DNA of 46,482 nt from a virus: the IMG/VR virus record IMGVR_UViG_3300032163_000028, positions 1 through 46,482 of that record; one strand, written 5' to 3'. Both the position numbers and the translations under genes were made by a program. Below the pieces are notes generated by a model. It ran no database searches. It had not been told where the DNA came from and saw nothing but the letters and a program-made list of their open reading frames with translations. Below, in pieces: positions 4,730 through 46,482 of the stretch. How positions within the stretch are numbered: the first letter of the stretch is position 1; each line of letters starts with the position of its first letter.

Positions 4730-4741
4730 CAACTGAATAAT

Positions 4742-6644: not shown

Positions 6645-6655
6645 AAGGAGGTAGT

Positions 6656-6940: not shown

Positions 6941-6946
6941 TGTAAC

Positions 6947-7687: not shown

Positions 7688-7688
7688 G

Positions 7689-7859
7689 ATGCTTAAACAA
7701 GACATCATCAAAATCCTACAAGAGTCTCTAACAGATGACCAAGAGGAGCATGAGATACTAGCTCATATAGCTGACCGCATTATCGCAGAGGTTGTGTTAA
7801 AAGAAGTTGCTAAGGCTGTGAGTAGTGCCATCACAGTGTACGTAGAAGGAGGGAAGTAA
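7689..7859 (+). CDS. Small helical protein, 56 aa
   Basis: The ATG is one base after the stop of the ATPase gene, with ggagtgag as ribosome binding site. The product is an amphipathic helical protein (MLKQDIIKILQESLTDDQ, then HIADRIIAEVVLKEVAKAV) without Cys or transmembrane features. It may be a subunit or regulator of the recombination proteins between which it lies. No family recognised. Confidence 0.6.
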   Translation: MLKQDIIKILQESLTDDQEEHEILAHIADRIIAEVVLKEVAKAVSSAITVYVEGGK

Positions 7860-7862
7860 ACG

Positions 7863-8567
7863 ATGATAATCGTTGACACATTCGAGCCTCCTGAGATAGG
7901 TTACATCCTCAAGCAGAAGATAGAGACCACTACCGCAGACTTGCAGCCTCTTGGATTTCTTGACTATCTCTGGTATGGTTGTGATAACCACAGCATCACA
8001 GTGGAACGTAAGGAAGTCCATGACTTTGTTAATAGCTTAGATAGGCTAGAGTTGCAGTTGAAGAAAGCACTGGGCAGGGCTGACGAAGTTATCCTGCTTA
8101 CTGAGGGTATCTTTGAACCAATAGAGAGTTCTACTATAACCTATAGAGAGAAGAAGGATGGTGGTGTCTTCTTCCGTGACCGTGTGAAGAACATGCCCTA
8201 TGCTTACTTCATGGGTTTCCTGTGGAGAATTGATAAGCTGGGTGTATCCTACTTCTCTACAGCAAGCATGAAGGGTACAGCAGTAGCCTTGCTTGAGTTC
8301 TACAAAGCCAGCCAAGACTCAGAGTACACTACCTTTAAGAGATATATCAAGCGTAAGCCTACTATCATGCAGCCTAACCCGCAAGTTACAAAGCTGATGG
8401 GATTAGGTGTGGGCGAGATGAGAGCTATTGCTCTTATCAAGAAGTTCAAAACAGTGTGGGCGGTATTACACGCTGATATTGATGACCTCCTGCAAGTCGA
8501 GGGGGTTGGTAAGAAGACTATAGAAGAGTTAATGAAAGGAATAGGTAAAGAATGGCCACCCTGTTAA
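7863..8567 (+). CDS. ERCC4-type structure-specific nuclease with helix-hairpin-helix
   Basis: The first 150 residues carry the ERCC4/XPF/Mus81 nuclease core: IIVDTFE (residues 2-8), DYLWYG, and the signature VERKEVHDFVNSL with the ERK-x3-D catalytic triad. The C-terminal 65 residues hold tandem helix-hairpin-helix motifs (MGLGVGEMRAIALIKKF and LQVEGVGKKTIEELMKG). Such proteins cut branched or flapped DNA in recombination and repair. The last five residues (EWPPC) appear to be a replacement: a sequence matching the end of this gene but continuing GKSNE-stop lies 500 bases downstream at 9039-9077, so a cassette inserted here changed the terminus. Confidence 0.88.
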   Translation: MIIVDTFEPPEIGYILKQKIETTTADLQPLGFLDYLWYGCDNHSITVERKEVHDFVNSLDRLELQLKKALGRADEVILLTEGIFEPIESSTITYREKKDGGVFFRDRVKNMPYAYFMGFLWRIDKLGVSYFSTASMKGTAVALLEFYKASQDSEYTTFKRYIKRKPTIMQPNPQVTKLMGLGVGEMRAIALIKKFKTVWAVLHADIDDLLQVEGVGKKTIEELMKGIGKEWPPC

Positions 8568-8668
8568 TTTTAGCCCTGTGTTTCTTCACCATCGGAGTTA
8601 TGGTTGGTTTTCATGCTGGTAAATATTACTGGCGAGACTATTGGATGAACCACGGGAAAAGTGGGTAA
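8552..8668 (+). CDS. Small single-pass membrane protein, 38 aa
   Basis: This short gene overlaps the end of the ERCC4 gene in another frame. The product is MATLLILALCFFTIGVM followed by VGFHAGKYYWRD: one N-terminal transmembrane helix and a polar, aromatic C-terminus. The ribosome binding site (aaagga) is weak and slightly far. It belongs to the inserted cassette 8552-9039, so its start may have been created by the insertion. A moron-like or lysis-modulating role is possible but unsupported. Confidence 0.5.
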   Translation: MATLLILALCFFTIGVMVGFHAGKYYWRDYWMNHGKSG

Positions 8669-8689
8669 CAATTTATCACGGAGGTAAAA

Positions 8690-9013
8690 ATGAGTAAGTA
8701 TATTTTACAAGCACCACCCAAAGACATGAGTTGGGAAGAATTTCTTGCGAAGAGTGCTGACTGGTTGGATGGCTTTAGTGCAGGTTATGACAAATGTGCG
8801 GGTGACAGAAGAATTTATGAACTTAGCAGATACCCCCGAAAGCAACAAACGCTGGAAAAAGATATTTTGAAGGTATTGGATAAAATCACAAAGTCTAAAC
8901 ACAAAAAAGAATCGAATGCGTTTTCCTTGATTCTTGCAATTCACCTAACGGATTTAGGTTATAAAAAGGGAAGGTTGCCTAAATCTGATTTTGTGCAGGC
9001 AGATACAGAGTGA
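8690..9013 (+). CDS. Hypothetical protein in inserted cassette, 107 aa
   Basis: A good ribosome binding site (cacggaggtaaaa) precedes the ATG. The protein is helical and basic (for example RKQQTLEKDILKVLDKITKS, residues 50-70) with two aromatic N-terminal segments (MSWEEFLAKSADWLDG). Codon choice (TTGCGAAG, AATGCG, CCCCGA) differs from its neighbours. It lies between the two copies of the ERCC4 3' end and so is probably a recently acquired gene. No family recognised. Confidence 0.65.
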   Translation: MSKYILQAPPKDMSWEEFLAKSADWLDGFSAGYDKCAGDRRIYELSRYPRKQQTLEKDILKVLDKITKSKHKKESNAFSLILAIHLTDLGYKKGRLPKSDFVQADTE

Positions 9014-9038
9014 AATAGCAGCCAAACGCTGTAGTCAA

Positions 9039-9077
9039 GAGGAGTTGATGAAAGGAATAGGAAAGAGTAATGAGTAA
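9039..9077 (+). pseudogene. Remnant of the original ERCC4 gene 3' end
   Basis: Reading in frame from 9039 gives EELMKGIGKSNE then TAA at 9075-9077; the intact ERCC4 gene ends EELMKGIGKEWPPC at 8567. At the DNA level 9039-9067 matches 8523-8551 at most positions. The remnant overlaps the start of the next gene (ATG at 9070), the tight spacing typical of this operon. The simplest reading is that the cassette 8552-9038 inserted near the 3' end of the ERCC4 gene and duplicated or replaced about 28 bases. Confidence 0.65.
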
Positions 9078-9483
9078 ACCAATGAGAATCTACATCGCTG
9101 GGGCGTTGTCTTCTAAGGAAGATGGCAAGCGTAACCCGTCAAAGGTCGTTACAGACTATATTACTAATGTACATAAGATGTGCAAGGCTGCATCCATTGT
9201 GCGTAAGAAGGGGCACTACCCGTTCATACCCTGCCTTGACTTTTTAGTGGGAGTAATAGCAGGGGACTGGGATGAGGAAGACTATCGTGGTGGTAGTGAT
9301 GAGTTCCTTGTAGTCTGTGATGCAATTCTTATCCTCAGTCTTAGTTATGGCGTGAGGAGAGAACTTGCATTGGCAACTAAACTGGGTATTATCATATATG
9401 ATGATATAGATAAGATACCAGACATCTCAGATGTTAGTAAAGATGCAGCTGAGGATTTGTTAGAGGGAGTGAGAAGAGGATGA
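9070..9483 (+). CDS. Nucleoside 2-deoxyribosyltransferase-fold protein (DUF4406-like)
   Basis: The 137-residue protein begins MRIYIAGALSS, the nucleotide-binding turn of the deoxyribosyltransferase/LOG-like Rossmann fold. A helix follows (NVHKMCKAASIVRKKGHYPF), then a conserved acidic region and a strand VCDAILILS followed by GVRRELALATKLGIIIY, the place where family members carry the catalytic Ser/Glu pair. Phage members are thought to handle nucleosides or nucleotides, or to sense them; the substrate is unknown. It overlaps the following gene by four bases (ATGA). Confidence 0.75.
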   Translation: MSKPMRIYIAGALSSKEDGKRNPSKVVTDYITNVHKMCKAASIVRKKGHYPFIPCLDFLVGVIAGDWDEEDYRGGSDEFLVVCDAILILSLSYGVRRELALATKLGIIIYDDIDKIPDISDVSKDAAEDLLEGVRRG

Positions 9484-9647
9484 AATTCAATGAGCAACAT
9501 TTGGTTATCATAAATACCTTGTCTAAAGACGAGGGCACAGCATTCATCAAGTTTCTGCAGAGTGAGATTATCAGGCACTTGGATGATATTCAGAATGCAG
9601 AGGAGCTAATAAATACAGTAAAGAAGGAGATATTAGATGCCAATTAA
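9480..9647 (+). CDS. Small helical protein, 55 aa
   Basis: The start codon overlaps the previous stop (ATGA) and is preceded by gagaagagg. The product is entirely helical and charged, with a leucine/isoleucine heptad pattern (FIKFLQSEIIRHLDDIQNAE) compatible with a coiled coil. No family recognised. Confidence 0.55.
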   Translation: MKFNEQHLVIINTLSKDEGTAFIKFLQSEIIRHLDDIQNAEELINTVKKEILDAN

Positions 9648-9659
9648 GGAGTGTAAGTA

Positions 9660-10631
9660 ATGCCATTACCAAATGATTTAGAACAAGAGGCAAAAGATTA
9701 TCTAACAGGTGACATAGACTGGAGAACTAAGAGGGCAGGGGAGTTGGGATTCAATAATAGGGAATCTTACCAAAGAGCTATGAGAAAGAAAAGCATTAAC
9801 TTGGTCGTGCCTGCTGGTGGGACTATCCCACTTGTAGTCGGTGAGAACAGTGGTTGGGAAGCGGAGGAGGTGAATATACCTCTTAAGATTAAGACTGGTG
9901 CAGAACCTAAGACTGTTGCGATAGTCCAAGACCTACATGTCCCTTACCACGATGCGACAGCATTGGCACTTGTAGAGGGTTTTCTTGGAGAGATCCAACC
10001 AGATTATCTTCTATACCCTGGTGATGTATACGACTTCTATGCGATTTCAGATTTTGATAAGAATCCCAATAGACTTGGTAAGATGCAGGAAGAGTTAGAT
10101 ATAACCAAGATGATTCTTGAAAGACATAATGCTCTCCTACCTAAAACAATAAAGAAACTCCTGCTGGGTAATCATGAGGATAGACTTAGACGTTTCCTAT
10201 GGACAAAAGCACCAGAACTGGCTACCTTACGATGTCTTACTATAGAAGAACTATTGGGGCTAAAGAATTTAGATATTGAGCTTATCGCCTACGAACAAGG
10301 ATTGATGATAAATGATGTCTTCCTTGTTTTACACGGTAACATAGCTAGTATCCATTCAGGTTATACTGCCAAGAGAATGTATGAGAAGCATGGTGGCTGT
10401 GGTATATGTGGTCACTGTCACCGACTAGGATCTTACTATAAGAGGGATAGATTTGGCATTTGGGGATGGTGGGAGAATGGATGTATATGCCATCTCAATC
10501 CTGATTGGATTAAGAATCCTAATTGGGTGCAGGGGTTCTCATTAGTCCATTTCCAAGATGATAGATTCTGGGTGGAGCAAGTACCTATAATAAAAGGTAA
10601 ATTTATGTATGGAGGTAGAATTTATGGATAA
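9660..10631 (+). CDS. Calcineurin-like metallophosphoesterase, 323 aa
   Basis: All core motifs of the metallophosphoesterase family are present: DLHVPYHD (about residue 93), the GDxxD-like PGDVYDFY, GNHEDR, a LHGN histidine, and the C-terminal GHCHRLGS. The first 60 residues form a small helical domain with a helix-turn-helix look (TKRAGELGFNNRESYQRAMR) that may bind DNA. Family members in phages hydrolyse phosphodiesters or phosphomonoesters in DNA or nucleotides with two metal ions. Ribosome binding site aaggag. Here it probably acts in DNA processing next to the polymerase; the substrate is not predictable. Confidence 0.85.
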   Translation: MPLPNDLEQEAKDYLTGDIDWRTKRAGELGFNNRESYQRAMRKKSINLVVPAGGTIPLVVGENSGWEAEEVNIPLKIKTGAEPKTVAIVQDLHVPYHDATALALVEGFLGEIQPDYLLYPGDVYDFYAISDFDKNPNRLGKMQEELDITKMILERHNALLPKTIKKLLLGNHEDRLRRFLWTKAPELATLRCLTIEELLGLKNLDIELIAYEQGLMINDVFLVLHGNIASIHSGYTAKRMYEKHGGCGICGHCHRLGSYYKRDRFGIWGWWENGCICHLNPDWIKNPNWVQGFSLVHFQDDRFWVEQVPIIKGKFMYGGRIYG

Positions 10632-10663
10632 CCTAGAAGTATTAGAGGAATTAGGAGGTGAAC

Positions 10664-10825
10664 ATGAATAGTGATTTAGTCAAGTGCTACAGATGCAAGG
10701 CTGAGTTCAAACCTCGTAAAGAGTGGAGAGAACGCTGTCCACGCTGCGGTACAGAGTGGTGGATGACTCCCTCTCTAATAGAGAGAATAGAGAGTGCATG
10801 GTGGGGGTTCATCAGACCATGGTAG
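10664..10825 (+). CDS. Small zinc-ribbon protein, 53 aa
   Basis: A strong site (ttaggaggtgaac) precedes the ATG. Two CxxC knuckles are seen, CYRC (residues 8-11) and CPRCG (25-29), with basic and aromatic residues between them: a rubredoxin-like zinc ribbon. The C-terminus is Trp-rich (AWWGFIRPW). It overlaps the next zinc-ribbon gene by seven bases. Probably nucleic-acid or protein binding; no specific function. Confidence 0.7.
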   Translation: MNSDLVKCYRCKAEFKPRKEWRERCPRCGTEWWMTPSLIERIESAWWGFIRPW

Positions 10826-11022
10826 TTAAACCTAAGCAATACAAAGTGAAATGTTTTCACCGTACTGAGCCTTTTCCTTATACTAAATGCCCTAACTGTG
10901 GGACAGAGGGACAAATGGTAATATGCGATGAGATGGGAGAGACCAGAATGTGTGCTAACTGTGATTATACAACAGACACTCATGAAGCTATAGAGCAATA
11001 TTATAATTATCACAAGAAGTAA
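10819..11022 (+). CDS. Small zinc-ribbon protein, 67 aa
   Basis: The start at 10819 lies inside the end of the previous gene; a longer in-frame start at 10723 would overlap it by 100 bases and lacks a ribosome binding site. The protein has CPNCGTEGQ (residues 24-32) and MCANCDYTT (43-52), two knuckles of a zinc ribbon, and a helical C-terminus. It resembles small phage zinc-ribbon proteins that bind nucleic acid or RNA polymerase. Confidence 0.65.
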   Translation: MVVKPKQYKVKCFHRTEPFPYTKCPNCGTEGQMVICDEMGETRMCANCDYTTDTHEAIEQYYNYHKK

Positions 11023-11023
11023 A

Positions 11024-11152
11024 ATGAGGAAACCTGTTGATTGTTGTGTAACCCCTTGGGCATGGGCTTTACCTTTAGAGATAGAGTATATGGAGAATAT
11101 TCACATTATCTGGATTAAGATACTCTGTATCTCTATTGTTATATGGGTGTAA
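11024..11152 (+). CDS. Small membrane-anchored protein, 42 aa
   Basis: This 42-residue frame begins two bases after the previous stop and ends in a hydrophobic stretch (IHIIWIKILCISIVIWV) that could be one transmembrane helix. The N-terminus has a Cys pair (VDCCVTPW). The ribosome binding site is weak (aagaag), so expression would rely on coupling. Family not recognised. Confidence 0.45.
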   Translation: MRKPVDCCVTPWAWALPLEIEYMENIHIIWIKILCISIVIWV

Positions 11153-11167
11153 AGGAGGTGATGTAAA

Positions 11168-11227
11168 ATGAACCCGCCGTATACGGGCGACCCCCTAGTG
11201 CAACATTCGGGACTCGGAGCGAATTAA
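11168..11227 (+). CDS. Possible 19-aa peptide gene
   Basis: One of the strongest ribosome binding sites of the region (taaaggaggtgatg) stands before an ATG that opens a 19-codon frame (MNPPYTGDPLVQHSGLGAN). The DNA is GC-rich compared with its surroundings and contains the palindrome CCGTATACGG. It may be a leader peptide, or the start of a gene shortened by mutation. Low confidence because of its length. Confidence 0.35.
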   Translation: MNPPYTGDPLVQHSGLGAN

Positions 11228-11443
11228 AATAACGATACCAGTTTATTGAGCATATACTCAGAATAATGAGTGGTGGTGTGAGTTTTATAATGCGTCTTTT
11301 TGCGGTAGGTGGTACTGTATTTCTGCGTACAACATGGCTCACACCACTACTTTTCATGTTGTCAGAAAAGGGGGGGGTCTTGGTCTTGGGGTCTTGGGGT
11401 GTGGGGGTATACACAAGTAACTGTAATGTATATAAGGAGGGTT
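11228..11443. other. 216-base region with inverted repeat and G-quadruplex motif
   Basis: No convincing gene is present. A 59-codon frame from ATG 11266 to TAG 11445 exists but has no ribosome binding site and an odd composition. Two structures stand out: a perfect 10-base inverted repeat, GTGGTGTGAG at 11273-11282 and CTCACACCAC at 11338-11347, and a G-rich strand at 11370-11407 with G runs of 8, 4, 4 and 5 separated by short loops with repeated TCTT. The four G runs fit a G-quadruplex on the plus strand. The segment might be a control element before the polymerase genes. Confidence 0.5.
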
Positions 11444-11507
11444 AGCTTCACTTTCATTTAATAGTTATATAGTATATATATACTATATACATAATAATCG
11501 CAAGTGA
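11444..11507. repeat. Palindromic intergenic element, copy 2 of 3
   Basis: Begins AGCTTCACTTTCATT, has a perfect 22-base AT palindrome at 11467-11488, and ends ATCGCAAGTGA. It is the most symmetric of the three copies (others at 1150 and 41755). It lies immediately upstream of the gene at 11516, whose ATG is only nine bases beyond the repeat; no separate strong ribosome binding site is seen there. Confidence 0.75.
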
Positions 11508-11515
11508 GAGTAATT

Positions 11516-11995
11516 ATGAAACCGTACTACCCCAAGCGTAGATGCAAGTGCAGAGCATGGTGCGGTAAGCCTATCGAGAAGGGTGAGCCAACCGTCCTGC
11601 TGTACTTCCGTAGTAAGAAGGGGTACTATCTGAAAGCGTACTTCCACTGGAGTTGTCTGCAAGCCAAGACGGACAGGTGGTTTGCTAAACATGCTCCGTC
11701 TACAGAGAAGCGTAGGAAGAAGTCTGTCAATCCCAACACAGTCCACAGGCTTAAGGCATTGCGTAGTTATCATAAGAAGATGGGTAACGTGCAGCGTGTA
11801 GCAGAGATAGATGCTACACTTGAGACTCTGGCTGTTAAGAAGAAGCTAGTGGTAGAGACAGGAGCATCCTTCCCATCACCTATATTCCCATTGAAGGATG
11901 AGACACCTAAACCTAAGAAGACAGCGAGAGAGAGATTCCCCAATCTCTACAAGAATAGGACAGAAGATGGTGAGGGAGAGTTTGTGAGTAGGTAG
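11516..11995 (+). CDS. Zinc-finger protein, 159 aa
   Basis: The ATG at 11516 is preferred over an in-frame GTG at 11504 that lies inside the palindromic element. The first 45 residues carry CKCRAWCGKPIEKGEP and a later HWSC, the metal-binding pattern of a treble-clef or PARP-type finger seen in many phage proteins. A basic linker (TEKRRKKSVNP) and a helical middle follow, with a proline/lysine-rich tail. It ends three bases before the polymerase gene, so it is probably co-transcribed and may be a polymerase accessory or DNA-binding factor. Confidence 0.7.
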   Translation: MKPYYPKRRCKCRAWCGKPIEKGEPTVLLYFRSKKGYYLKAYFHWSCLQAKTDRWFAKHAPSTEKRRKKSVNPNTVHRLKALRSYHKKMGNVQRVAEIDATLETLAVKKKLVVETGASFPSPIFPLKDETPKPKKTARERFPNLYKNRTEDGEGEFVSR

Positions 11996-11998
11996 AAT

Positions 11999-13603
11999 AT
12001 GTTATATTACTTTGGTAAACAGAAATTCACAAGCAGAGATGAAGTCCTAACAGCCCTCGCTCAAGCTACTAGAGTAGCCATTGATACAGAGGTAGCTGAG
12101 GATGGTAGGCTTATCGGGGTAGCAATGGCGTGGACACCAGAGGATGCTGTGTTCTTTCCTAGAGACTCTGAAGAGATGCCACTGGAGTTCCTCTCTAGAG
12201 TACCTGTTGTGTTCCATAATGCTTTATACGACATAGCCGTACTTAGAGATAACTACAACATTCTAGTAAATTGTATAGGTGACACTATGCTCCTAGCTCA
12301 GTCTTGTGGCTATCCACCCGCTCTTGGAGACCTCTCATTTGATTTCAACTTCAACCATTCCCACATCACCTCGCTTATACGTGGTGCGACAGGTAAGAAG
12401 ATAGCTAAGAAGAAACTGGGTGATGCTCCTATTGAGGATGTAGCCAAGCTCTGTTCTCAACACGCTGAGGGCACTATCAAGATATGGGATGCTCTACGTG
12501 AGTCTGCTCCTATGGCATATCACTTAGACTTTAGCCTGATCCCTGTTATACAAGCCATGCACGACAGGGGTATCAGAGTTGACCCGCAGAACGCAAACAG
12601 GAGATATGCTGTTATAAAGGATGAGATGGATGGCATCAAAGATGTCTGCAAGGATATGGGATTCAACCCAGGCTCGACTAAACAGGTAGGTATAGCCCTT
12701 TCCAATGCTGGCATCATTACTGGGTTCACAAGGAAGGGACACATGGAGACAGGTGAAGAAGCACTCTCTCCCTTCCAAGAGATGACTCCCATTGTCCCTC
12801 TAGTGTTAGCCTATAGAGACAGGCAGAAGACTGCATCTACATATCTCAAACCGTTACTTGAAGTAGAACGTGTGTATCCACACTATCATATAGTAAGAAC
12901 AGGAAGGTTTGCATCCCATCCTAATATACAGAATATACCAGAGGGTATCAGAGATTTGTATCTACCAGAGGTAGGAGAATGGTTCTGGGATGCAGATGCC
13001 TCGCAGATTGAACCTCGTCTTATGGCATGGTTTAGTGGAGACCAGAAGATGTGGAGGGATGTGAGTACAGGGGATGTCTACCAGCCTATAGCTACTCGTA
13101 TGAGAATATCACGATACACAGCCAAGCAACTTGTACTGGCTGCAAGCTATGAGGCTGGTGCAGATATGCTCGTATCAGCAGCACATAGACGTGGGGACAC
13201 TATTAACAACGGTGATGCCCAGAATTTAATTGATTTGTTCTACAAGGAATACCCACGGTTTAAGGCATGGAAGCAAGAAGTAAGACAAGATGCTGAGAGA
13301 GACGGATATGTCTATACTCTATTAGGTCGTAAGCGTACACTACAAGATATGGTATATGATGAGTACACTGGTTATGACCCTCTTAAGAAGACAGTCAACA
13401 CTCTCATTCAGGGTAGTGCAGCAGACCTGCTTAAACTGGCTATGTGGGAACTTAGGGGGGAGAAGTTATCGGCTACTATACATGATGAGATACTTATAAG
13501 TACAGACCATGATATAGACATTGCTCCACTACTCAGTCTGGGTGGGATACCTCTAGCTTGGACAGTATCAAAGGGTGAGAACTGGAAAGAGGTTAAACAA
13601 TGA
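11999..13603 (+). CDS. polA: Family A DNA polymerase with 3'-5' exonuclease
   Basis: The 534-residue protein has an exonuclease domain with DxE (Asp29, Glu31 in AIDTEV), HNALYD (Asp78) and GDTML (Asp95). The polymerase domain has motif A DADASQIEPR (catalytic Asp333), motif B RYTAKQLVLAASYEAG (Arg372, Lys376, Tyr384) and motif C IHDEIL (Asp496, Glu497). No 5'-3' exonuclease domain is present, as usual in phage enzymes, and it is shorter than T7-type enzymes (about 700). Leu380 aligns with E. coli Phe762, and the usual Tyr-Gly of motif B is Tyr-Glu. It is the phage replicative polymerase. It is last-but-one in the plus-strand arm and overlaps a 32-residue gene. Confidence 0.95.
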   Translation: MLYYFGKQKFTSRDEVLTALAQATRVAIDTEVAEDGRLIGVAMAWTPEDAVFFPRDSEEMPLEFLSRVPVVFHNALYDIAVLRDNYNILVNCIGDTMLLAQSCGYPPALGDLSFDFNFNHSHITSLIRGATGKKIAKKKLGDAPIEDVAKLCSQHAEGTIKIWDALRESAPMAYHLDFSLIPVIQAMHDRGIRVDPQNANRRYAVIKDEMDGIKDVCKDMGFNPGSTKQVGIALSNAGIITGFTRKGHMETGEEALSPFQEMTPIVPLVLAYRDRQKTASTYLKPLLEVERVYPHYHIVRTGRFASHPNIQNIPEGIRDLYLPEVGEWFWDADASQIEPRLMAWFSGDQKMWRDVSTGDVYQPIATRMRISRYTAKQLVLAASYEAGADMLVSAAHRRGDTINNGDAQNLIDLFYKEYPRFKAWKQEVRQDAERDGYVYTLLGRKRTLQDMVYDEYTGYDPLKKTVNTLIQGSAADLLKLAMWELRGEKLSATIHDEILISTDHDIDIAPLLSLGGIPLAWTVSKGENWKEVKQ

Positions 13604-13698
13604 AGAAATCAGATGTGTGGTTTCTAGTCCGATTGGTGCTAAGAACCTTACTCGGTATCTTAGAACAGTGGTATATGAGATTGAAGAGACGGGTGTGA
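13600..13698 (+). CDS. Small basic protein, 32 aa
   Basis: The ATG overlaps the polymerase stop (ATGA) and lies behind aaagaggtt. The 32-residue product is basic and amphipathic (VWFLVRLVLRTLLGIL, then RLKRRV), possibly membrane-associating. It ends ten bases before the convergent late arm; no strong bidirectional terminator is visible there. Low-to-moderate confidence because of its size. Confidence 0.4.
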   Translation: MKKSDVWFLVRLVLRTLLGILEQWYMRLKRRV

Positions 13699-13708
13699 AC
13701 TGGCTCGT

Positions 13709-13966
13709 CTACCTTCTATTGTTGTGTCTTTTCCTCTCATACTTTATCCCAATCCCTACCTTGTCTTTAGCCATCTGTTCCAGTACCCACACCCACGCCA
13801 TCCCGTCTACGAATGTAAGGATTACCTGGATTACTATGATTAGGAGTGCTAACTTGTAAACTTCGTTCGCCAACAAAGACCCTGCCCAGACATCGAGAGG
13901 GATAGTTAGTGCTCCGTATAAAATAGTTAAGTTCTTTAGCAGTTTGTATTTCACCTGGAGGCTCAT
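13709..13966 (-). CDS. Small two-helix membrane protein, holin-like candidate, 85 aa
   Basis: The protein has two hydrophobic segments (about residues 12-30 and 37-60, with LALLIIVIQVILTFVDG) and a charged, Lys/Arg-rich C-terminus, the layout of a small holin or antiholin. It is the last gene of the late minus-strand arm, beside other membrane proteins of a lysis cluster. The GGAG ribosome binding site and start codon lie in a hairpin (13954-13980), so translation may be restrained by RNA structure. No signature family recognised. Confidence 0.6.
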   Translation of the reverse strand: MSLQVKYKLLKNLTILYGALTIPLDVWAGSLLANEVYKLALLIIVIQVILTFVDGMAWVWVLEQMAKDKVGIGIKYERKRHNNRR

Positions 13967-31486: not shown

Positions 31487-34400
31487 TTATTTAAGTTTGA
31501 CGGGTTTCTTTGCAGGCAGAGCACAGTTAGGATGTGGAGTTGTGAATTTACCACTAGCTACACCTTCTTTATCAAACCAGCAGTTGTTCCCTCTGAAAGC
31601 ATATCTTGCTGCAGCGTCTGCCTTACCATCTGGCTTTCTCATCTTATCATAATGGTTATCCCATGCCTCTACGAACTTATCAGAAGGGGGAAGGTTCTTA
31701 TGAACTGTACGTGCATCTGCTCTACCAGTCTCCACATTAAGATACTTGTTCATATCAGGATGCTTCAACAGATACTGCCATTGGTCATATTCTATTTGGT
31801 CATCTCTCTTATTCTGCTTCCCAACAGCTCTCCACTCAGCCCAATCTGCTTGAGTCAATCCATAAGCATCTGCAGCTTTCTTAGGTAGAATCTCCTGTGC
31901 GAAGGCTGGGATTGCGCTCTCAGGATAACTATACTTAGTCATCATCTGACGAACCAGAGGTTCAGCATCAGGGTTCTTAAACGTAGAGACATATCCCCAG
32001 AATACTAATAGAGCAGCAATCTCCACATTCTTAGGGTCTTTCAAGAAAGCCTCTCTAGCTTTCCTGTCAGGGTCTCCATAGGAGTCTTTCAAATCAAAGT
32101 ATGGTTGGAGTTTCTCAACATCCTGGCTCTTTGAAACCATAGCAGGGGACTGTCCAGCATCTAACTGCTTCTGAGCAATAGTCTTCTTAATCTGGTCATA
32201 CAACTGACTTCCATAGTCAGCCTTAAACTGGTCTATTGCCTTCCTTCGTGTCTCATAATCAGGGTCTCCATTCTTATCAAGATACTCTTGAGTTATAATA
32301 CTTGTATATTTACGTACTGCCCTATCATAGAACCAGTCATACTTACCAACAGTCTTCTCTCTTTCAGTGAGGAAGTCATAGATTGTCGTATAAGCAGGAG
32401 TTCTCTCCATTTCAGCTTGGGAAGTACCATACATCTCTCCATCATGACTACTCTCAAGTCTAAGGTCTCTTGTAGTCTTCTCACCAGACTTGACCTGAGC
32501 ATTTAGTGCATTACAAGCATCATAAAATATCTTCTGGTCAGCTTTCCACTGTTCTTCCCACTGCTTCCACACGAGAGAATCACGTATAGTTCTATCAGTA
32601 GACGCAACTTCCCAGAGTTTTGCCAGTTCAGGATACAATGTCTCCGAGATTAGCATGTCCTGCAAGCCACTTGGCAGCATGTCATGTCTTAATTTACCCT
32701 CTGCTTGAGCTTGTAGAATCTTCGGTAACTCATCAGGAGTGTAGAACCTCTCTAGCACATCCACTGGCAACTTATTGGCTACCTTACTTTCTGCATCATA
32801 GAACGCTGCAGAGGAACTCTCTGGGAAAGCTGACAGACCTAGAACTGAGGCTGCTGCAACAGCCACACGTGTTGCACCTTCTGGGGTAGCCCTACCATGT
32901 GATAATTGAGGAATATAAGGATTGATAACATCATCCCCCCAGAACGGTTCAAAGCGTGTCATGATATAAGCAGCATAAGAAGCTGGGTCTTCTATAGGAC
33001 TCTTCCCTTCTGGACTTATTGGATAACCAAAGTAATCTCTTCCACTTGCCAGTTCAAAGCCTAATCCCACTACAGGAGCACTCCCACTATACCATGTCTT
33101 AATCAAAGGATTGTCTAGCCAACTATCTCCACCACCTTTAAGGATAGTGAGCAAGTCAAGTCTATCATTCTCAGCAGCTTCACCTAACTTCTCTAGGGAG
33201 TAGTTAATGGCTGATGCAAGTCTCATAAACTTGAACCAGAATGTACGAGCACCAATATAGGAGTTACCAATTTTAAGAGACATAAAGTCAGCACCAGGTT
33301 TCCAAGATACTTCACCAGTTATGGGGTCTACGAAGACACCGAAGTTGGCTAACACATCGTCTCTTGCCTGCTCCTCTGTCTTACCCTCTATCAATGCCTT
33401 AGAATATTTAATCCCACTCATAAACAGAGCACCAAGTGCCAACATGCCTCCAATAGCTTTCCTAGCCTCTGCGCCAGTGTAACCACCACGGAATAGGTGA
33501 CTGACCGTGGCAAGACAGGCTCTTGTGTAGTTAGGAGCAAAGAATACAAGTGAGTTCTCCAGCTGTCTTATAGTCATAGGTACACCCGCTGCTTCAGAGC
33601 TAAAGACACCAGTAATATTATCAAGTATCTTTGCTAGTTCGTATTCCTGTCCGATGTTCTTACAGCGTGGCTGCATAATCTTCCAGAAGCCGTCTCGTAC
33701 CTCCTCAGTCATAATGCAGAAGGATAAGTTTGCTCTCTGATAAGGAGTGAACCTGCCCATCTTTGCTGCTATTGTACTCTCAGTACTAATAATGTAGTCA
33801 GAGACTAGAACACTACCACCACGATTGGCTCTCTGTGCAACAGATTCAGCATTCTTTGCAATAGCCTTAGCAGCTATTTGAGGATTAAAATATACTCCTA
33901 CTGAGTCACCAAAGGATTTGAACCATATCCCCATCATCTTAGCACCCTCTGTTGGATTCTGGAAACAATGAGCAAATGCTAGTCCGAGTGAGGGTAGACC
34001 CTGAACACAGGCAGCAGAAAGGTCAAGAGATGCGGTTGCAATTCGTAGCATACCTGATGCTTCTGCAGTTATCTTGAGTAGAGTTGAACCCTGCTCAACC
34101 TTAAAGTATTTCTTGAAGACATCAACAAACTCATCTTCATACTGCTTCCCACCAGCAAAGGGCTGTGGCAGGTAATCCATACCAATCTCAGGTTTCCTAG
34201 CCACTTCCATACCCTTAGCATAAGCAGCTTTGGCAGCATCCCATTTAGGTTTCAGGACTTGTAGTTCCTTATAAATATTCTTCTGAAACTTAGTAAGAGC
34301 AAGGGTTCTAGCATTACCTTTCATACCCAAGATATTCTTTAACTCTGCTGCCAGTTTAGGAGCACGGTTCTCAATAGACCTTATAGTAGAATAAGGTAGT

Positions 34401-37400
34401 ATCTCACCTGAGAACTTGGGATTGGCTCTTAGAGTATTAAATGCTTTCTTGGTTTGAGCCACAATATAACCAAGGTCAGCCATGTGCTCCCTAACAGAGA
34501 CTTGTGGGACTGTCCCACCAATCCTAGGTGCAACTCGTCTTTCAGCATAGCCTACCTTACCCCAACCCTTCTTAATCTGGTCAACCATAGTTTTAGCAGC
34601 ATCTTCGGGCATCGCTGCACTTATAAGTTTTATAACATTCTTTACAGGTGTTCCTGCTTTTAACTCCGCAGCAGCCATTGCTCTAGAAGCAGCACTAATT
34701 TCTGGAGTGAGAGCTTCTAGTGCCTTCATACCCTTGGTTGCTGCTACCACTCTCTTCGGTGCAACTTCAACTCCCACACCTTTAGCAACTCTCTCTGCCA
34801 TCGGTCTCAACTGCCAAGCTGCAGCTTCTCTAGGGAACATCTGTTGGAATATCTCACTAACTGGAGTACCAAACTCTTCAGTGTACTTGATAAACCGTGC
34901 ATCAGCTATTCGCTGATAAGCCTGTGTTATGTAGTCCTTTATCAGAAGGACTGGGTTGTTAGCATAAGCCTTATTCAATTCAGGGTGTTCTAGGAAGTAC
35001 CTACGAGCATCTCCCATAGTTTTGAATCTACGAGGCATCTCATAAGTTGGAGTCTTACCAATAGCCTTACTACCACGTTTAAGTCTGGGACTTCCCTTCA
35101 TCTTCTTAACATCCACCACCATGCGATGTATCCACTCCTCTATTACAGCTTCAGGGGGGACACCTTCCTTGATGAGTAATGCAAGCATCTCATCTTCAAC
35201 TTCTTGATACAGGGCAATATATTTCCTTCCCTCTAGTATCCCAGCCCAGTTATACATATCTGGTTGAGTGAAGACATGCTCAATAGTCCCAGCCTCTTTC
35301 AATACATCTGGCATCTTCCTAAACTTAGGTCTCAGTTTCTTATACATAAATTCAGAGAAAGCAGTCTTATCAAAACCATAGTATTTGACAGGGTCGTTGA
35401 TGAGGGCTGTTAGTTCCCATTCCTTTACTGCAGCAGCATTGATGCCACGTCTTGTCATTACTGACCAACCAATAGCACCTCTAGCCACTTTATTCTGCAC
35501 ATCCTGTGCAGTACGTGAGATTAAGACTTTCCATCCTAATACCGCCTCAATCCCCTTTTTAAGAGGTGGAGCTTTAGCCAGAGTTGTCAGAAGACGTTTC
35601 TGCCAGTTATCTACTAAGACTGAAGCAATATCCTCATCCATTGAGGCTAAATTCATAGGATGTTCAAGACTCTTAGATTGTTCAATCATGCGGTTCACTA
35701 TCTTCTGAGTCATGCCTGCAGATGCTTTCTCTACCGCCTTTAGACCACCCTTTATAACCAATTCAACAGGTTTAGTAACGGGGTACATTACACCCCTCTC
35801 AACAGCCTGCACACCTGCTGCGGTATACCTTAATGCTTCACCGATAACGGGTATCTTAGAAGTAATTTTGGCTGCTAGACCAAGTGTTTCCCCAATAGGA
35901 ATAAGATAAATTGGGTTAGCAAATTCATAGGCTGTCTTAAAATACTTTGCACCAGACCAGACCTTCTGCGATTCCCCCCAAGCCGTTTCCCATGCCTCTG
36001 ATACTTCGTCAGAGAAGACCATAGCCCAACCGTACTTCTGAGCAGCCCCTATCAGAATTTTATTTGCTTCAGATTCCTGGTCGTACCCTGTAGGAATCTC
36101 TCTTACCTCCATTTTGAATTTACCCTGACCCTCAAAAGAACGTCTTGCTATTGCTTTATATAATTCATCAGAGAGATACAAACCAGCTAGTTCCCAGGGA
36201 CGACCCACAAACTTTTCTATGAAAGCACCCATTACACCGACACCGCCTTTAAGCCATTCTATGCCGTCCCTACCATATTTCTGTCTGCCCTCTTCGGTTG
36301 ACAGGTCTGTCTTTCTTGAGTTCACTTCAAGGAAGTTTTGTATGGCTGCATCAAGCTGGGTTGGTGCAAGGGGATTTACTGCATAACTGGTAGGACTTAT
36401 TGGACTAGGATTAAATATCTGAGCAAGTTCGTCATCGGTTAGGGTAGGATACACCATCTTTAACACTGCTCTTGCTATGGGACTGTCACCTATCTGATGA
36501 AACATATCAAGGAACTTTGATTGGTTCAGTTCCGCATAAGCCAACAGTTGGTCTACATCCTCAGTCGGGAATAAATTGCCTAGGGCTGTTATTAAAGTCT
36601 TACTGTCCGCTATCTCCTCTGCTGTATATTCCTTTCCTGGTTCTGTAATTGTTGCACCCATTTCATCAACATAAGTTTTAGGTGGAGTGATATAAGTATC
36701 TCTGGTTGTATACACACTACCATCTGGGAAAGTGAGGTTCCCTTCCTTATCTGCTGTTACACCTTCAGGAAGAACTAAGGGAGTAATTAACGTCTCACCA
36801 ATATTAGCAATTCCCTCTAGGTCAGTGGGCATCAAAGGTACTTTTATACCTTCTGGTGAGACTCGATAATAAGTACCATCCTCCTCGACAACCTCTCCCA
36901 GAGAAGAAGATAGAGGGGTGTGGACACCACCTTCACCAACCAAGCCAGCTTGAAGTCTAGCCTCATAGTCACGTTGGAAGAGGTCTCCCAGGGATGATGG
37001 GTCAATACCTAAGACTCTCAATCGTTCTGCAACAGGACTCTCCTCTTCTGGCTGATTAAAAGCATCTTCTACCAGATTCCAGAAGTTAGACCCTCCTCCA
37101 GCAGTCGAAGCATTCCAACCAGCCGTAGCAACATTCACACCACCCATCTGGATGGCTCGGTCAATAACATCCTGCGGTACTCCAGCCCAGAACGCAGCTT
37201 CAGCATTCCATTGATTTATAGGAACTCTGGCTTGAAGTATGTTATGTTGTTCAGATGTAAGTTCATAGGGAGGGATGAAAGCATCTGCCATTCGATAGAA
37301 ACCATCCATGTCGAAGGGTCTTGCCATGCCATAATACTTGGCATACTCTTCAGCTGTAGTTAAATCAGTTATATCAAAGGCTGCTCCCTTTGCATAAGGA

Positions 37401-37927
37401 ATCTTTGAGATTTCTGGTAATACAGGGTCTGGGTCAGGTGGTAAACCCACCTCCTGTCTCCATTCACCATAACTCTGACTCCAAGGGTCTTTCCTCGGTA
37501 CAGCTTTATAAGGAGTGGGCGGTACTGGTGTTGCCCCAGTGTAAAACTCAGAAACTCCAGGAGGCAGATTTGACCATGGGGTAGCTTTCTCAGCAGATGG
37601 TGCAGCCTTCTCAATAAGTGGAGGTAATTTAGAGGTTACAGGTTCTTGAGTAGTCCCCCCTGGCTTCTTAGGGGGAGGACTAACATCAATGTTTTCATCA
37701 ACAGTAACACCTTCAGTTGGTTGGAAGGATGCTTGAAGTCCTGCCCCACTAACAAGTCTGTCAACATCCTGCTCCGCATCTGGGAATTGGTTCTTGACAA
37801 GATTGGAAATCTCTACAGGGGTTATCCCAGGACGTTCCCTAAGCAGTTCCTTAATAAATGCTCTAATGTCTTCTTCAGATGTTTGGAGTAAACCCTCACT
37901 ACCTAAACTTGGAAATTCCAGAGGCAT
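31487..37927 (-). CDS. Giant virion protein, probably internal/ejection protein, 2146 aa
   Basis: The first 450 residues are a proline-rich, acidic low-complexity part (for example TPYKAVPRKDPWSQSYGEWR). The middle (about 540-1500) is predominantly helical, with amphipathic and hydrophobic stretches (ETLGLAAKITSKIPVIGEAL, AIGGMLALGALFMSGIKYSK), and the last 600 residues are helical and charged. No catalytic motif, lysozyme or polymerase signature was recognised. Its place between portal and scaffold fits the large internal proteins that podoviruses eject into the cell with their DNA. At 6.4 kb it is 14% of the genome. Good ribosome binding site (aaggagttagatagtt). Confidence 0.7.
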   Translation of the reverse strand: MPLEFPSLGSEGLLQTSEEDIRAFIKELLRERPGITPVEISNLVKNQFPDAEQDVDRLVSGAGLQASFQPTEGVTVDENIDVSPPPKKPGGTTQEPVTSKLPPLIEKAAPSAEKATPWSNLPPGVSEFYTGATPVPPTPYKAVPRKDPWSQSYGEWRQEVGLPPDPDPVLPEISKIPYAKGAAFDITDLTTAEEYAKYYGMARPFDMDGFYRMADAFIPPYELTSEQHNILQARVPINQWNAEAAFWAGVPQDVIDRAIQMGGVNVATAGWNASTAGGGSNFWNLVEDAFNQPEEESPVAERLRVLGIDPSSLGDLFQRDYEARLQAGLVGEGGVHTPLSSSLGEVVEEDGTYYRVSPEGIKVPLMPTDLEGIANIGETLITPLVLPEGVTADKEGNLTFPDGSVYTTRDTYITPPKTYVDEMGATITEPGKEYTAEEIADSKTLITALGNLFPTEDVDQLLAYAELNQSKFLDMFHQIGDSPIARAVLKMVYPTLTDDELAQIFNPSPISPTSYAVNPLAPTQLDAAIQNFLEVNSRKTDLSTEEGRQKYGRDGIEWLKGGVGVMGAFIEKFVGRPWELAGLYLSDELYKAIARRSFEGQGKFKMEVREIPTGYDQESEANKILIGAAQKYGWAMVFSDEVSEAWETAWGESQKVWSGAKYFKTAYEFANPIYLIPIGETLGLAAKITSKIPVIGEALRYTAAGVQAVERGVMYPVTKPVELVIKGGLKAVEKASAGMTQKIVNRMIEQSKSLEHPMNLASMDEDIASVLVDNWQKRLLTTLAKAPPLKKGIEAVLGWKVLISRTAQDVQNKVARGAIGWSVMTRRGINAAAVKEWELTALINDPVKYYGFDKTAFSEFMYKKLRPKFRKMPDVLKEAGTIEHVFTQPDMYNWAGILEGRKYIALYQEVEDEMLALLIKEGVPPEAVIEEWIHRMVVDVKKMKGSPRLKRGSKAIGKTPTYEMPRRFKTMGDARRYFLEHPELNKAYANNPVLLIKDYITQAYQRIADARFIKYTEEFGTPVSEIFQQMFPREAAAWQLRPMAERVAKGVGVEVAPKRVVAATKGMKALEALTPEISAASRAMAAAELKAGTPVKNVIKLISAAMPEDAAKTMVDQIKKGWGKVGYAERRVAPRIGGTVPQVSVREHMADLGYIVAQTKKAFNTLRANPKFSGEILPYSTIRSIENRAPKLAAELKNILGMKGNARTLALTKFQKNIYKELQVLKPKWDAAKAAYAKGMEVARKPEIGMDYLPQPFAGGKQYEDEFVDVFKKYFKVEQGSTLLKITAEASGMLRIATASLDLSAACVQGLPSLGLAFAHCFQNPTEGAKMMGIWFKSFGDSVGVYFNPQIAAKAIAKNAESVAQRANRGGSVLVSDYIISTESTIAAKMGRFTPYQRANLSFCIMTEEVRDGFWKIMQPRCKNIGQEYELAKILDNITGVFSSEAAGVPMTIRQLENSLVFFAPNYTRACLATVSHLFRGGYTGAEARKAIGGMLALGALFMSGIKYSKALIEGKTEEQARDDVLANFGVFVDPITGEVSWKPGADFMSLKIGNSYIGARTFWFKFMRLASAINYSLEKLGEAAENDRLDLLTILKGGGDSWLDNPLIKTWYSGSAPVVGLGFELASGRDYFGYPISPEGKSPIEDPASYAAYIMTRFEPFWGDDVINPYIPQLSHGRATPEGATRVAVAAASVLGLSAFPESSSAAFYDAESKVANKLPVDVLERFYTPDELPKILQAQAEGKLRHDMLPSGLQDMLISETLYPELAKLWEVASTDRTIRDSLVWKQWEEQWKADQKIFYDACNALNAQVKSGEKTTRDLRLESSHDGEMYGTSQAEMERTPAYTTIYDFLTEREKTVGKYDWFYDRAVRKYTSIITQEYLDKNGDPDYETRRKAIDQFKADYGSQLYDQIKKTIAQKQLDAGQSPAMVSKSQDVEKLQPYFDLKDSYGDPDRKAREAFLKDPKNVEIAALLVFWGYVSTFKNPDAEPLVRQMMTKYSYPESAIPAFAQEILPKKAADAYGLTQADWAEWRAVGKQNKRDDQIEYDQWQYLLKHPDMNKYLNVETGRADARTVHKNLPPSDKFVEAWDNHYDKMRKPDGKADAAARYAFRGNNCWFDKEGVASGKFTTPHPNCALPAKKPVKLK

Positions 37928-43630: not shown

Positions 43631-43660
43631 TTGACAAGCTGTCCGAAGCTGTGCTACACT
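43631..43660 (+). promoter_or_regulatory. Early promoter of the plus-strand arm
   Basis: TTGACA (43631-43636) and TACACT (43655-43660) are separated by 18 bases, with a TGC extended -10 immediately before the -10 hexamer. ATGTTCGTCA lies 18 bases upstream of the -35, as in the promoter at 1893. The first gene begins at 43718. Confidence 0.75.
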
Positions 43661-43717: not shown

Positions 43718-43882
43718 ATGCAGGACTGGCAGATTAAGCTGAGAGAGGTAAGTGGTGAGTTGGTGGGAGTGAAAGTAAAGGTCGAGCCTGTGGCTGTGAA
43801 GAAACAACATAGGTTAGGTGCAGTATCTTGTTATAAAGATAGCAAGGGATTGCATCTGGATTATAGAGAAAGGAGGTACTAG
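43718..43882 (+). CDS. Small basic early protein, 54 aa
   Basis: The ATG at 43718 follows the very strong site aaggaggaggtaagtaag; a longer frame from 43613 would start upstream of the promoter. The product is basic and beta-rich (VGVKVKVEPVAVKKQHRL, then a DYRERRY end). First gene of the early transcript. No family recognised. Confidence 0.65.
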   Translation: MQDWQIKLREVSGELVGVKVKVEPVAVKKQHRLGAVSCYKDSKGLHLDYRERRY

Positions 43883-43883: not shown

Positions 43884-44177
43884 ATGCACTCCGTAAGATT
43901 GTGTGACCGTGGGGACAAGGCTATCATGGAGGACTGTGACCATGACTGCGAGCATTGTAACATAAACGAACCAACAACTAATAAGGAAGTGCCAGAATTT
44001 ATAGAGATAGAATATGAAGTCATGCAGACCAAGAGTTATGTCCCAGCTGAAAGAGTAGCTAAGGACTACCAAGTAAATGAATGGAGGGATGGCATTATCT
44101 TCATTCATACTCCTGATGGATGGATAGAGGTCGATACTGTCCATAAGAAGTTCCAAGCTGGCGAGTATGAGGGATAG
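43884..44177 (+). CDS. Small Cys/His early protein, 97 aa
   Basis: The ATG at 43884 has a strong site (aaaggaggtactaga) and lies one base after the previous stop. Residues 17-25 (DCDHDCEHC) form a compact Cys/His cluster that can bind zinc. The rest is an alpha/beta domain (EFIEIEYEVMQTKSYVPAE, GIIFIHTPDGWIEVDTVHK). No family recognised; it precedes the amidoligase pair and might be functionally linked to it. Confidence 0.65.
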   Translation: MHSVRLCDRGDKAIMEDCDHDCEHCNINEPTTNKEVPEFIEIEYEVMQTKSYVPAERVAKDYQVNEWRDGIIFIHTPDGWIEVDTVHKKFQAGEYEG

Positions 44178-44191: not shown

Positions 44192-45502
44192 ATGCCACCT
44201 GAGACTGACTTGGTAGAAGTGCTTATCCCTTGTAGACGTTGCAACGAGGAGTTCAGTCCTGAAGATAGCGATGACGAAGAGCTGTGTCAGGACTGTTATG
44301 ATAGCAGGTCTCTTTGTGCGGAATGCGATGAGGAACTGTGGGATGAGAGGCATAGCCGACAGAGGGTTTATACTAATAACGATGGGGATACCTACTGTGA
44401 GAACTGCTATTATGAGAAGTACTCACATTGTGCACATTGCAACGAAGAGATTGAAACTGCTTCAACATGGAACGCATGTGGTGACAGTTATTGTGAGGCA
44501 TGTTATGAGGACTTGTATATTTCCTGTGATGGTTGTGGGGATATAATAAGTAGGGATGACAGCTACGGGGGTAGTGATGGTAACTCTTACTGTAGAGACT
44601 GCTATCATGAAGACGATGAGGAGAGTTCATATTCTCCATACATTCGTGAATATCATAGCCGTAGACCAAGACTGCAATTTCACAGGATAGGTGAGCCAAA
44701 TACTCTAATCTGTGAACCTCTACCGTATGGAAGTGCCTTGTATCTGGGAGTTGAGTTGGAAGTAGATGAGTTCGATGGTGATGATATGCCTGCCTGTGCT
44801 GATAAATTGCATCGTTTGTCTCATGATGAGAGGTTGTTTCACATGGAGACCGATGGCTCTATTAACTATGGCTTTGAAGTAATCTCTCAACCATGCACAT
44901 TAGAGTATCACCTTACAGAGTTTGGTTGGAAAGAACTTTCAGAGATAGTGGTGAATTATGGTGGAAGAAGCCATAACACAAGCACTTGCGGACTTCACAT
45001 TCACTTTAATAAAACATTCTTTGGGGTTACTGAGAAGGCAAATGACCTACACTCACTAAAGTTATTGTATCTTTTTGAGAAGTTTTGGGAACAGTTTGTT
45101 ATATTCTCAAGACGTAGAGGTGAGAGTTGGATTCATTACGCTGAGAGATACAACGAAACCTTTGACACTGTGGGTAAAGTGGCTCATCTGAAGAATGGGA
45201 ATTATGGGAGATACTTTGCGGTAAACATTCAGCCAGAGGACACAATAGAACTTCGCATATTCAGAGGGACTCTCAACATCAATACTCTGTTTGCCACATT
45301 AGAGCTTGTAGATTTCCTTGTCCGCTATTGCAAGAGGCACACCATTAGCCTGGTGCAGACTCTAACTTGGGAGAAGCTGGTCGAAGCTATTCCTTCCAAG
45401 TACGAGTATCTGCTGAAGTACCTTGAGAGCATAAACTTAAAACACTCAGAGACAATAATTGAAGGAGGTGTACCGAATGTGTTTGATAGTGAGCAAGCCT
45501 AG
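44192..45502 (+). CDS. Zinc-finger amidoligase (COOH-NH2 ligase, Amidoligase_2-like), 436 aa
   Basis: The first 145 residues contain five or more CxxC pairs (CRRCNEEF, CQDC, CAEC, CENC, CAHC, CEAC, CDGCG, CRDC), LIM/treble-clef-like zinc fingers. Residues about 185-400 are the amidoligase domain of the glutamine-synthetase-like fold: GVELEVDEFDG, FHMETDGSINYGFEVISQP, TCGLHIHFNKTFF and ELRIFRGTLN. Family members join a carboxyl group to an amine with ATP; the phage members have been predicted to modify peptides or the cell wall. The next gene is a class II glutamine amidotransferase-like protein, a known pairing. Ribosome binding site aaaggaggtgag. Domain calls are firm; the substrate is unknown. 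Confidence 0.88.
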   Translation: MPPETDLVEVLIPCRRCNEEFSPEDSDDEELCQDCYDSRSLCAECDEELWDERHSRQRVYTNNDGDTYCENCYYEKYSHCAHCNEEIETASTWNACGDSYCEACYEDLYISCDGCGDIISRDDSYGGSDGNSYCRDCYHEDDEESSYSPYIREYHSRRPRLQFHRIGEPNTLICEPLPYGSALYLGVELEVDEFDGDDMPACADKLHRLSHDERLFHMETDGSINYGFEVISQPCTLEYHLTEFGWKELSEIVVNYGGRSHNTSTCGLHIHFNKTFFGVTEKANDLHSLKLLYLFEKFWEQFVIFSRRRGESWIHYAERYNETFDTVGKVAHLKNGNYGRYFAVNIQPEDTIELRIFRGTLNINTLFATLELVDFLVRYCKRHTISLVQTLTWEKLVEAIPSKYEYLLKYLESINLKHSETIIEGGVPNVFDSEQA

Positions 45503-46418
45503 AAAGGTAAGATTCCCGAAGGGGAAGCAGTTAAAGAGGTGGTTTGATGAGCATGATGATGGCTTTGGTCTTATGTTTCAAGATAAAGATAAAGTTCATA
45601 TCATGAAAGGTGCTATGACCTTGAGTGATATGTTCAAGCTCATCAATAAGGTAAGAGATTACATTAAGCCGACCAAACTGGATAACATACATATCATAAT
45701 GCACTTTAGGCAAGCCACTGGTGGCAAGGTGTGTCCTGAGAATTGCCACCCCTTCCCTGTAGGTGGTTCAGGTTTTGGAGAGCTGGACACATTGGTCGAT
45801 ATGGGATTGGTACACAATGGGATTATCTGGGACTACGGGACATACTCTAAAGGTACATGGGAGTTCGGAGGGGCTGATAGCAAGACTGATACACAAGAGT
45901 TTATTGAGGACTACCTCACTGAGATTGGGGATGCTATCTTTAACCCAAGTGTGCAGGCTATGATAGAGGACTTCTCCAGCAGTAAATTCGCTGTAATGTC
46001 GGGGAACACGGTAGCTCTTATTGGAGATTTTATTAAGGACAAGGGTGGTTTGATGTTCTCCAATGGCGGTTACAAACCTATTCCCAATCCAATACCAGTA
46101 GCAGTAGAGAAAGTGCCTGCTAACTTCTGTCAACTCCCAGCTGGCGTTAAAGCCTTTGGTGATGACTATGAAGAAGACAATGAACTGTTCGGTTCTACTA
46201 GGCGGACAGAACAGTGTGACTTCTGTGAGAAGTTTGATGACGTCGACAAGATGATAGACACTGGAGACTACTTCCTGTGTAGAGATTGTTCACAAGAGTA
46301 TGATAAGTGGTGGCTTTCGGAAGATAGTGCAGCAAACACACCACCATTTAAGCATACAAACCCTAGACATATCAACCACCGTGTTCGCTACGTAGGAAAC
46401 AGATACGCTGGACTATAG
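45477..46418 (+). CDS. Class II glutamine amidotransferase-like (Ntn hydrolase) protein, 313 aa
   Basis: The ATG at 45477 is chosen because it has gaaggaggtg upstream and gives Met-Cys at the start: Cys2 would be the N-terminal nucleophile after Met removal. Conserved class II signatures follow: FRQATGG (about 77-83), ENCHPF (His91), LVHNGII (about 111-117) and DSKTDTQEF. Residues 230-275 hold a zinc ribbon (CDFCEKFDDVDKMIDTG, FLCRDC). It could release ammonia from glutamine for, or hydrolyse the product of, the amidoligase whose gene it overlaps by 26 bases. The 3' end recurs at the left window edge. Confidence 0.85.
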   Translation: MCLIVSKPRKVRFPKGKQLKRWFDEHDDGFGLMFQDKDKVHIMKGAMTLSDMFKLINKVRDYIKPTKLDNIHIIMHFRQATGGKVCPENCHPFPVGGSGFGELDTLVDMGLVHNGIIWDYGTYSKGTWEFGGADSKTDTQEFIEDYLTEIGDAIFNPSVQAMIEDFSSSKFAVMSGNTVALIGDFIKDKGGLMFSNGGYKPIPNPIPVAVEKVPANFCQLPAGVKAFGDDYEEDNELFGSTRRTEQCDFCEKFDDVDKMIDTGDYFLCRDCSQEYDKWWLSEDSAANTPPFKHTNPRHINHRVRYVGNRYAGL

Positions 46419-46431
46419 CTAAAGGAGGTGT
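46306..46431. repeat. Right copy of terminal direct repeat
   Basis: Identical to bases 1-126. Beyond it (46432-46482) the sequence follows the same course as 127-177 with five mismatches, so this end was extended into another variant. Confidence 0.85.
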
Positions 46432-46434
46432 TAC

Positions 46435-46482
46435 ATGGATGCAATCACAATGACTAAGGCAGAGTTGAATGCAGTACCACTT
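46435..46482 (+). CDS. 5' end of variant copy of the 130-564 gene (partial)
   Basis: Starts with the same strong ribosome binding site (aaaggaggtgtt) and codes for MDAITMTKAELNAVPL before the window ends. It corresponds to the start of the gene at 130 (MDAITMTKAELKAIPF), with three residues different in 16. It is either an allele of the same gene from another strain, or a diverged paralog, which would mean the genome is not closed here. Confidence 0.6.
   Translation, partial: MDAITMTKAELNAVPL

Follow-up and report, generated by a model that had tools for sequence, protein, structure and literature searches.

An overlapping gene pair encoding a zinc-finger amidoligase and a class II glutamine amidotransferase in a phage operon

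The plus-strand operon of the window (the whole 46.5 kb phage contig analysed here, 46,482 nucleotides) contains two overlapping genes, one encoding an amidoligase with an array of zinc modules (hereafter AL) and the other a class II glutamine amidotransferase (hereafter GAT). Both proteins pass the thresholds of their families and keep the residues of their active sites, and considerably more than a hundred further phages and mobile elements are known to have the pair, the two genes being near-obligate companions there. The pair thereby joins an already described, uncharacterised kind of phage pair. We propose that GAT would make ammonia from glutamine and that AL would use ATP to place this ammonia on a carboxylate, a division of labour that we regard as probable.

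The two genes and their operon

Bases 1-177 of the window are repeated, with five mismatches, by the redundant end at 46306..46482, so that the contig closes and the operon carries on across the joint into base 1. The minus strand carries late genes (terminase, head). The plus-strand operon begins near 43.7 kb and continues over the joint into genes at 130-13859, including those for a helicase, a Cas4-like protein, a Sak4-like protein, a nuclease and a DNA polymerase. As the initial annotation had stated, AL and GAT are the third and fourth genes of this operon. They are preceded on the plus strand by two small ORFs with no function assigned, one of 54 aa with a strong ribosome site (43718..43882) and one of 97 aa, Cys-rich near its start and also with a ribosome site (43884..44177), the latter giving neither a family match nor a relative in the phage records searched. 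Near-perfect ribosome sites of the AAGGAGGT type stand before all four genes. A candidate sigma-70-type promoter with an extended -10 element (TTGACA-N18-TACACT, TG before the -10; plus strand, 43631..43660) is suitably positioned upstream, but promoter-like matches in the operon region were no commoner than in shuffled sequence, and the site is not statistically special. The genes had further been assigned to the earliest transcript; their operon position is confirmed, while from the gene layout we infer that this operon would be the first expressed.

The AL gene (44192..45502, plus strand) encodes 436 aa with the motifs ETDGS, CGLHIHF and ELRIFRG. The protein passes the Pfam cut-offs both for Amidoligase_2 (PF12224; 30.3 bits, cut-off 22) and, in two stretches, for LIM (PF00412; 24 bits, cut-off 22.9), and it matches phrog_16683 at 1.2e-54. 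The zinc array spans residues 14-137 (44231..44602, plus strand) and consists of four LIM-like modules, with Cys pairs at 14/17+32/35, 42/45+69/72, 80/83+101/104 and 112/115+134/137; of 113 relatives, 101-107 retain the last three modules and about 40 have the additional module of the window. A profile of the AL family reached solved LIM proteins at 1.4e-5, and the usual role of LIM-like arrays is protein binding. The remainder of AL is a predicted catalytic domain resembling glutamine synthetase and glutamate-cysteine ligase (GCL) at residues 176-412 (44717..45427, plus strand). In a structure model with a mean pLDDT of 89, built on an alignment of 113 relatives from which five rows of annotated phage records had been left out, the best fold neighbours of residues 176-436 were YbdK-type enzymes (Z 13.6 and 13.5 over ~230 residues) and plant glutamate-cysteine ligase (Z 13.5), with glutamine synthetases at a Z of about 12 and PafA/Dop also among the matches. 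By this model AL is a glutamine-synthetase/GCL-fold amidoligase, as had been read from its motifs. It shares its catalytic-domain fold with YbdK, gamma-glutamylcysteine ligase and glutamine synthetase, which to our knowledge have neither a zinc array nor a separate glutaminase partner. Thirteen residues, among them both Glu of GVELEV, are invariant in 118 relatives; G186, E188, E190, D221, S223, E229, H269, H271, E353 and R355 are kept in 113/113 and 118/118 sequences, and we take the invariant residues to be the metal, ATP and substrate ligands of the superfamily. Judged by these residues, the AL active site is intact.

GAT (45477..46418, plus strand; 313 aa) overlaps AL by 26 bases. Its mechanical ORF opens at a TTG at 45459, while the ATG at 45477 has the ribosome site GAAGGAGGT and gives a protein beginning MCLIVSK, with Cys at position 2. 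The initial annotation had called it an Ntn-type amidotransferase-like protein with Cys2, which agrees with a Pfam GATase_4 score of 25.9 bits (cut-off 23) and with a structure model (pLDDT 82) whose nearest fold is the glutaminase domain of GlmS/GFAT; NCBIfam gave glmS-type matches at sub-threshold scores only. The Ntn glutaminase domain covers about residues 2-200 (45480..46076, plus strand), including C2, R78, N114 and G115. M1-C2, R78 and N114-G115 are kept in 149/149 relatives, and the HPF motif and His113, which precedes Asn114-Gly115, show little or no variation. The whole motif set, including [TS]D[TSP], passed an automated check in 141 of the 149, and several of those that failed merely lack a strict Thr/Ser before the Asp. 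As far as conservation can tell, the GAT active site is likewise intact. The zinc ribbon also ascribed to GAT corresponds to a putative Cys4 zinc-knuckle element near the C-terminus (residues 246-285; 46212..46331, plus strand), but its profile matches are sub-threshold (DUF4428, E 0.024; zf-C4_ClpX, E 0.069). CxxC pairs were seen in 35/75 GATs from phages and hardly ever in chromosomal ones.

Pairing in phages and bacterial genomes

Searches of IMG/VR with the single sequences of AL, GAT, PolA and TerL gave no relatives, so alignment queries were needed. An alignment-based scan with AL found 453 relatives in IMG/VR (79 loci examined) and 272 in species genomes (80 loci examined). A GAT with a Met-Cys start was present at 146/167 AL loci, and at 130 of the 167 it lay within 200 bp of AL (-100..+200 bp), mostly overlapping it or nearly so. 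The pair, whose absence from close relatives would have counted against the original proposal, is thus conserved. When the search started from GAT, in a locus set that partly overlaps the first one, AL was present at 42/47 loci, nearly always immediately upstream; of the five remaining loci, three are cut by contig edges, one is in a record with two AL genes elsewhere, and one is in a record with four GATs and no AL. The divergence of AL and that of GAT are correlated over 70 phage pairs (Mantel r 0.51, reached in 0/2000 permutations, with no control gene in the comparison).

The pair also occurs in many Clostridia genomes, mostly of Oscillospiraceae (L089-L168), often in the order DUF960, AL, GAT and serine recombinase, the DUF960 gene being the 96-aa gene beside the chromosomal pair. 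Several of these genomes hold more than one copy, and the neighbourhoods look like mobile elements. In the flanks, which were examined for a conserved third gene, only the resolvase and DUF960 recur, both mainly with the Clostridia form. In one Clostridia MAG (L106:1674-3845) AL and GAT form a single ORF of 723 aa. We did not count it as proof of a fused complex; its internal ATG and its context suggest that it probably reflects a lost stop or a frameshift, and a Cys buried within such a protein would not be active. In the record of the GAT-first search that has no amidoligase (L193, G073), the four GAT-like genes stand in tandem at 8803-11743, one of them broken by two stops.

There is a suggestive tendency for the zinc array and GAT to be absent together. 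The C. difficile phages, one with a complete circular genome included, have a zinc-free AL and no GAT in the record, and a second zinc-free AL lineage (L029) is likewise without GAT. Over 66 clusters the association between zinc array and GAT gave a Fisher p of 0.087, and a GAT was nevertheless present in seven clusters whose AL is zinc-poor; the array as an obligatory dock for GAT is therefore a suggestive idea only. In the MurT/GatD enzyme, a Cys-rich, probably zinc-binding insertion of MurT takes part in the interface with GatD, and mutating this insertion affected association (PMC6085368); the same zinc-dock idea is thus reached from an independent side.

A lead to the substrate came from the nearest relative that we found, IMGVR_UViG_3300015370_000073 (L010/L170), which shares the helicase, Cas4-like, Sak4 and PolA genes with the window. 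Here the gene order is AL, glutamate racemase (MurI), GAT, each overlapping the next. The racemase (L010:2609-3442) is full length, contains the two Cys motifs and reaches 181.6 bits with TIGR00067 (cut-off 146.65). MurI makes D-glutamate for the cell wall, and its insertion between an otherwise contiguous AL and GAT hints at D-glutamate, as a single case that is a lead and not proof. No racemase was found in the window itself, nor in any other of the 66 AL-bearing records searched; racemase matches occur in 22/50,697 phage records, several of which are evidently host DNA.

Comparison with described systems

Overlapping AL-GAT genes are in print for the Methylophilales phages MEP401 and MEP402 (PMC10580990); that paper cites Marvin, as well as phiEco32 from Iyer 2009 with the superinfection idea. 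As in the window, the MEP401/MEP402 genes overlap and stand ahead of primase, helicase and polymerase genes, but their AL has a long N-terminal region with two CxxC pairs only, in contrast to the full LIM-like array of the window. Marvin gp105/gp106 and their cluster relatives also show adjacent AL and then GAT, Cys2 and zinc motifs in both proteins, whereas identity to the window is 28% over the ligase and Marvin has fewer zinc modules. The GenBank record of Marvin (JF704100.1, L007) gives gp105 and gp106 alike the name 'glutamine amidotransferase domain protein'; gp105 is the amidoligase, and for it the name is misleading. Amidoligase and glutamine amidotransferase genes are further known from LUZ24-like phages (PMC3890496, PMC3517423), whose early genes, like those of phiEco32 as cited in PMC10580990, resemble the window in including Amidoligase_2 and a class II glutamine amidotransferase. 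The UFV-P2 cassette differs by its added ATP-grasp and COOH-NH2 ligase genes (PMC3890496) and by a longer GAT (486 aa). In the literature searched, which covered Iyer 2009 and the Marvin papers via citations, we found no experimental characterisation of phage AL-GAT pairs, in line with the statement of the initial annotation that the phage forms are experimentally undefined. New relative to this literature are the count behind the near-obligate pairing, the racemase gene inside the pair, and the lineages in which zinc array and GAT are missing together.

In MurT/GatD, too, two adjacent genes encode a glutaminase and a ligase that depends on ATP and has a Cys4 zinc-ribbon-like element (PMC6085368, PMC6113224). 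The fold of MurT, however, is that of the Mur ligases, and the glutaminase GatD belongs to class I, with a Cys-His-Glu triad, whereas AL has a predicted glutamine-synthetase/GCL fold and its partner is a class II Ntn enzyme. Because of this fold and this class, the window pair is not a homologue of MurT/GatD, and it is possibly a functional analogue.

Proposed reaction and alternatives

In the reaction that we envisage, AL and GAT would be the two subunits of a glutamine-dependent carboxylate amidotransferase produced early in infection. Removal of Met1 would free the N-terminal Cys of GAT, which would then hydrolyse L-glutamine to give ammonia. Like glutamine synthetase and gamma-glutamylcysteine ligase, AL would use ATP to activate a carboxylate, which would then react on AL with the ammonia from GAT to form an amide. 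The zinc modules may grip the partner, a macromolecular substrate or both. The substrate would most likely be the carboxylate of glutamate or D-glutamate, the best candidate being the D-glutamate of a peptidoglycan precursor, and wall chemistry would then be altered in a MurT/GatD-like way at an early stage of infection. To amidation by such a two-subunit enzyme of a target of the Glu/D-Glu type in particular we assign a little less than an even chance. Peptide or cell-wall modification, as suggested at the outset, is still a prediction, which the racemase of the nearest relative, one case in 66 AL records, tips towards D-glutamate or the wall. The boldest form of the proposal is that of a widespread, convergent phage amidotransferase for peptidoglycan precursors, in which a zinc-finger ligase of the glutamine synthetase fold and a class II glutaminase would rewrite wall D-glutamate early in infection, some phages bringing their own racemase as substrate supply. 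We consider this unlikely as a whole. The hosts are diverse (Mycobacterium, Methylophilales, Clostridia), so that a single shared wall chemistry is not assured, which counts against the amidation proposal in general.

Amidation itself has a competitor, since the fold of AL is nearer to gamma-glutamyl ligases, which join amino acids (YbdK, GCL), than to a pure amidating enzyme. AL could thus be a peptide or gamma-glutamyl ligase whose zinc fingers hold a host or phage protein, to which it would conjugate an amino acid or an amine; GAT would either supply ammonia for a second step or be an amidohydrolase by which the bond is trimmed or reversed. The LIM-like array would suit such a role, as would the presence among the AL fold matches of PafA/Dop, enzymes that attach and detach a protein tag, and related phage cassettes contain ATP-grasp and COOH-NH2 ligases (PMC3890496). 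Against this, all GATs keep the glutaminase core residues, and no small tag-like partner recurs beside the pair among the flanking genes examined. The window, moreover, contains neither a GSP_synth ATP-grasp gene (PF03738) nor a gamma-glutamylcyclotransferase gene (PF06094), both controls being positive; COOH-NH2_lig (PF14395) matched nothing in the window and nothing in the control genomes either. All in all we hold the ligase interpretation to be rather doubtful, yet worth keeping in mind. A role in phage DNA hypermodification, with the pair acting on a nucleotide or DNA base that carries a carboxylate, would fit the replication genes that follow in the operon and a nucleoside deoxyribosyltransferase-like gene at 9070-9483. 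It appears very improbable, as a base-modification enzyme is absent from the genes scanned and bacterial chromosomal islands also hold the pair.

Two further explanations strike us as more improbable again, and about equally so. The pair might serve auxiliary nitrogen metabolism by raising host glutamine/glutamate flux, as proposed for Phage-ZRK32, which has amidoligase and glutamine amidotransferase genes and, in the excerpted text of its report, promoted growth on nitrate or ammonium; the tests in that excerpt concern the whole phage and not the genes (PMC10945688). A glutaminase, however, consumes glutamine and does not make it, and docking or a macromolecular role would account for the zinc-finger array of the ligase better than bulk metabolism would. 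Alternatively, GAT could work apart from AL, their adjacency reflecting only the shared ancestry of an early-gene cassette. AL without GAT in the C. difficile phages and the record with four GAT copies and no AL are what such independence would predict, whereas the gene overlap, the correlated divergence and the recovery of AL beside GAT in the GAT-first search argue against it.

Glutamine-dependent amidation makes a concrete prediction, namely that glutamine nitrogen would pass to a carboxylate, with D-glutamate or peptidoglycan as the first candidate, for a pair found with both active sites intact in more than a hundred phage contigs and in many Clostridia genomes. Should the wall be the target, phages would have in this pair a widely used means of altering the chemistry of the host wall, with a bearing on superinfection and lysis. 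Superinfection exclusion and defence evasion, offered as guesses in the initial annotation, would be speculative roles. A PADLOC scan gave no match.

Elsewhere in the window we observed three other genes of note. An AAA_25/RepA-like helicase (1928-3670) carries at residues 239-302 a LAGLIDADG insert that is probably an intein with a homing endonuclease, and the replication operon includes an ERCC4 plus helix-hairpin-helix nuclease resembling XPF/MUS81 (7863-8567). On the minus strand, among the structural genes, lies an ORF of 2146 aa (31487-37927) without any Pfam match.
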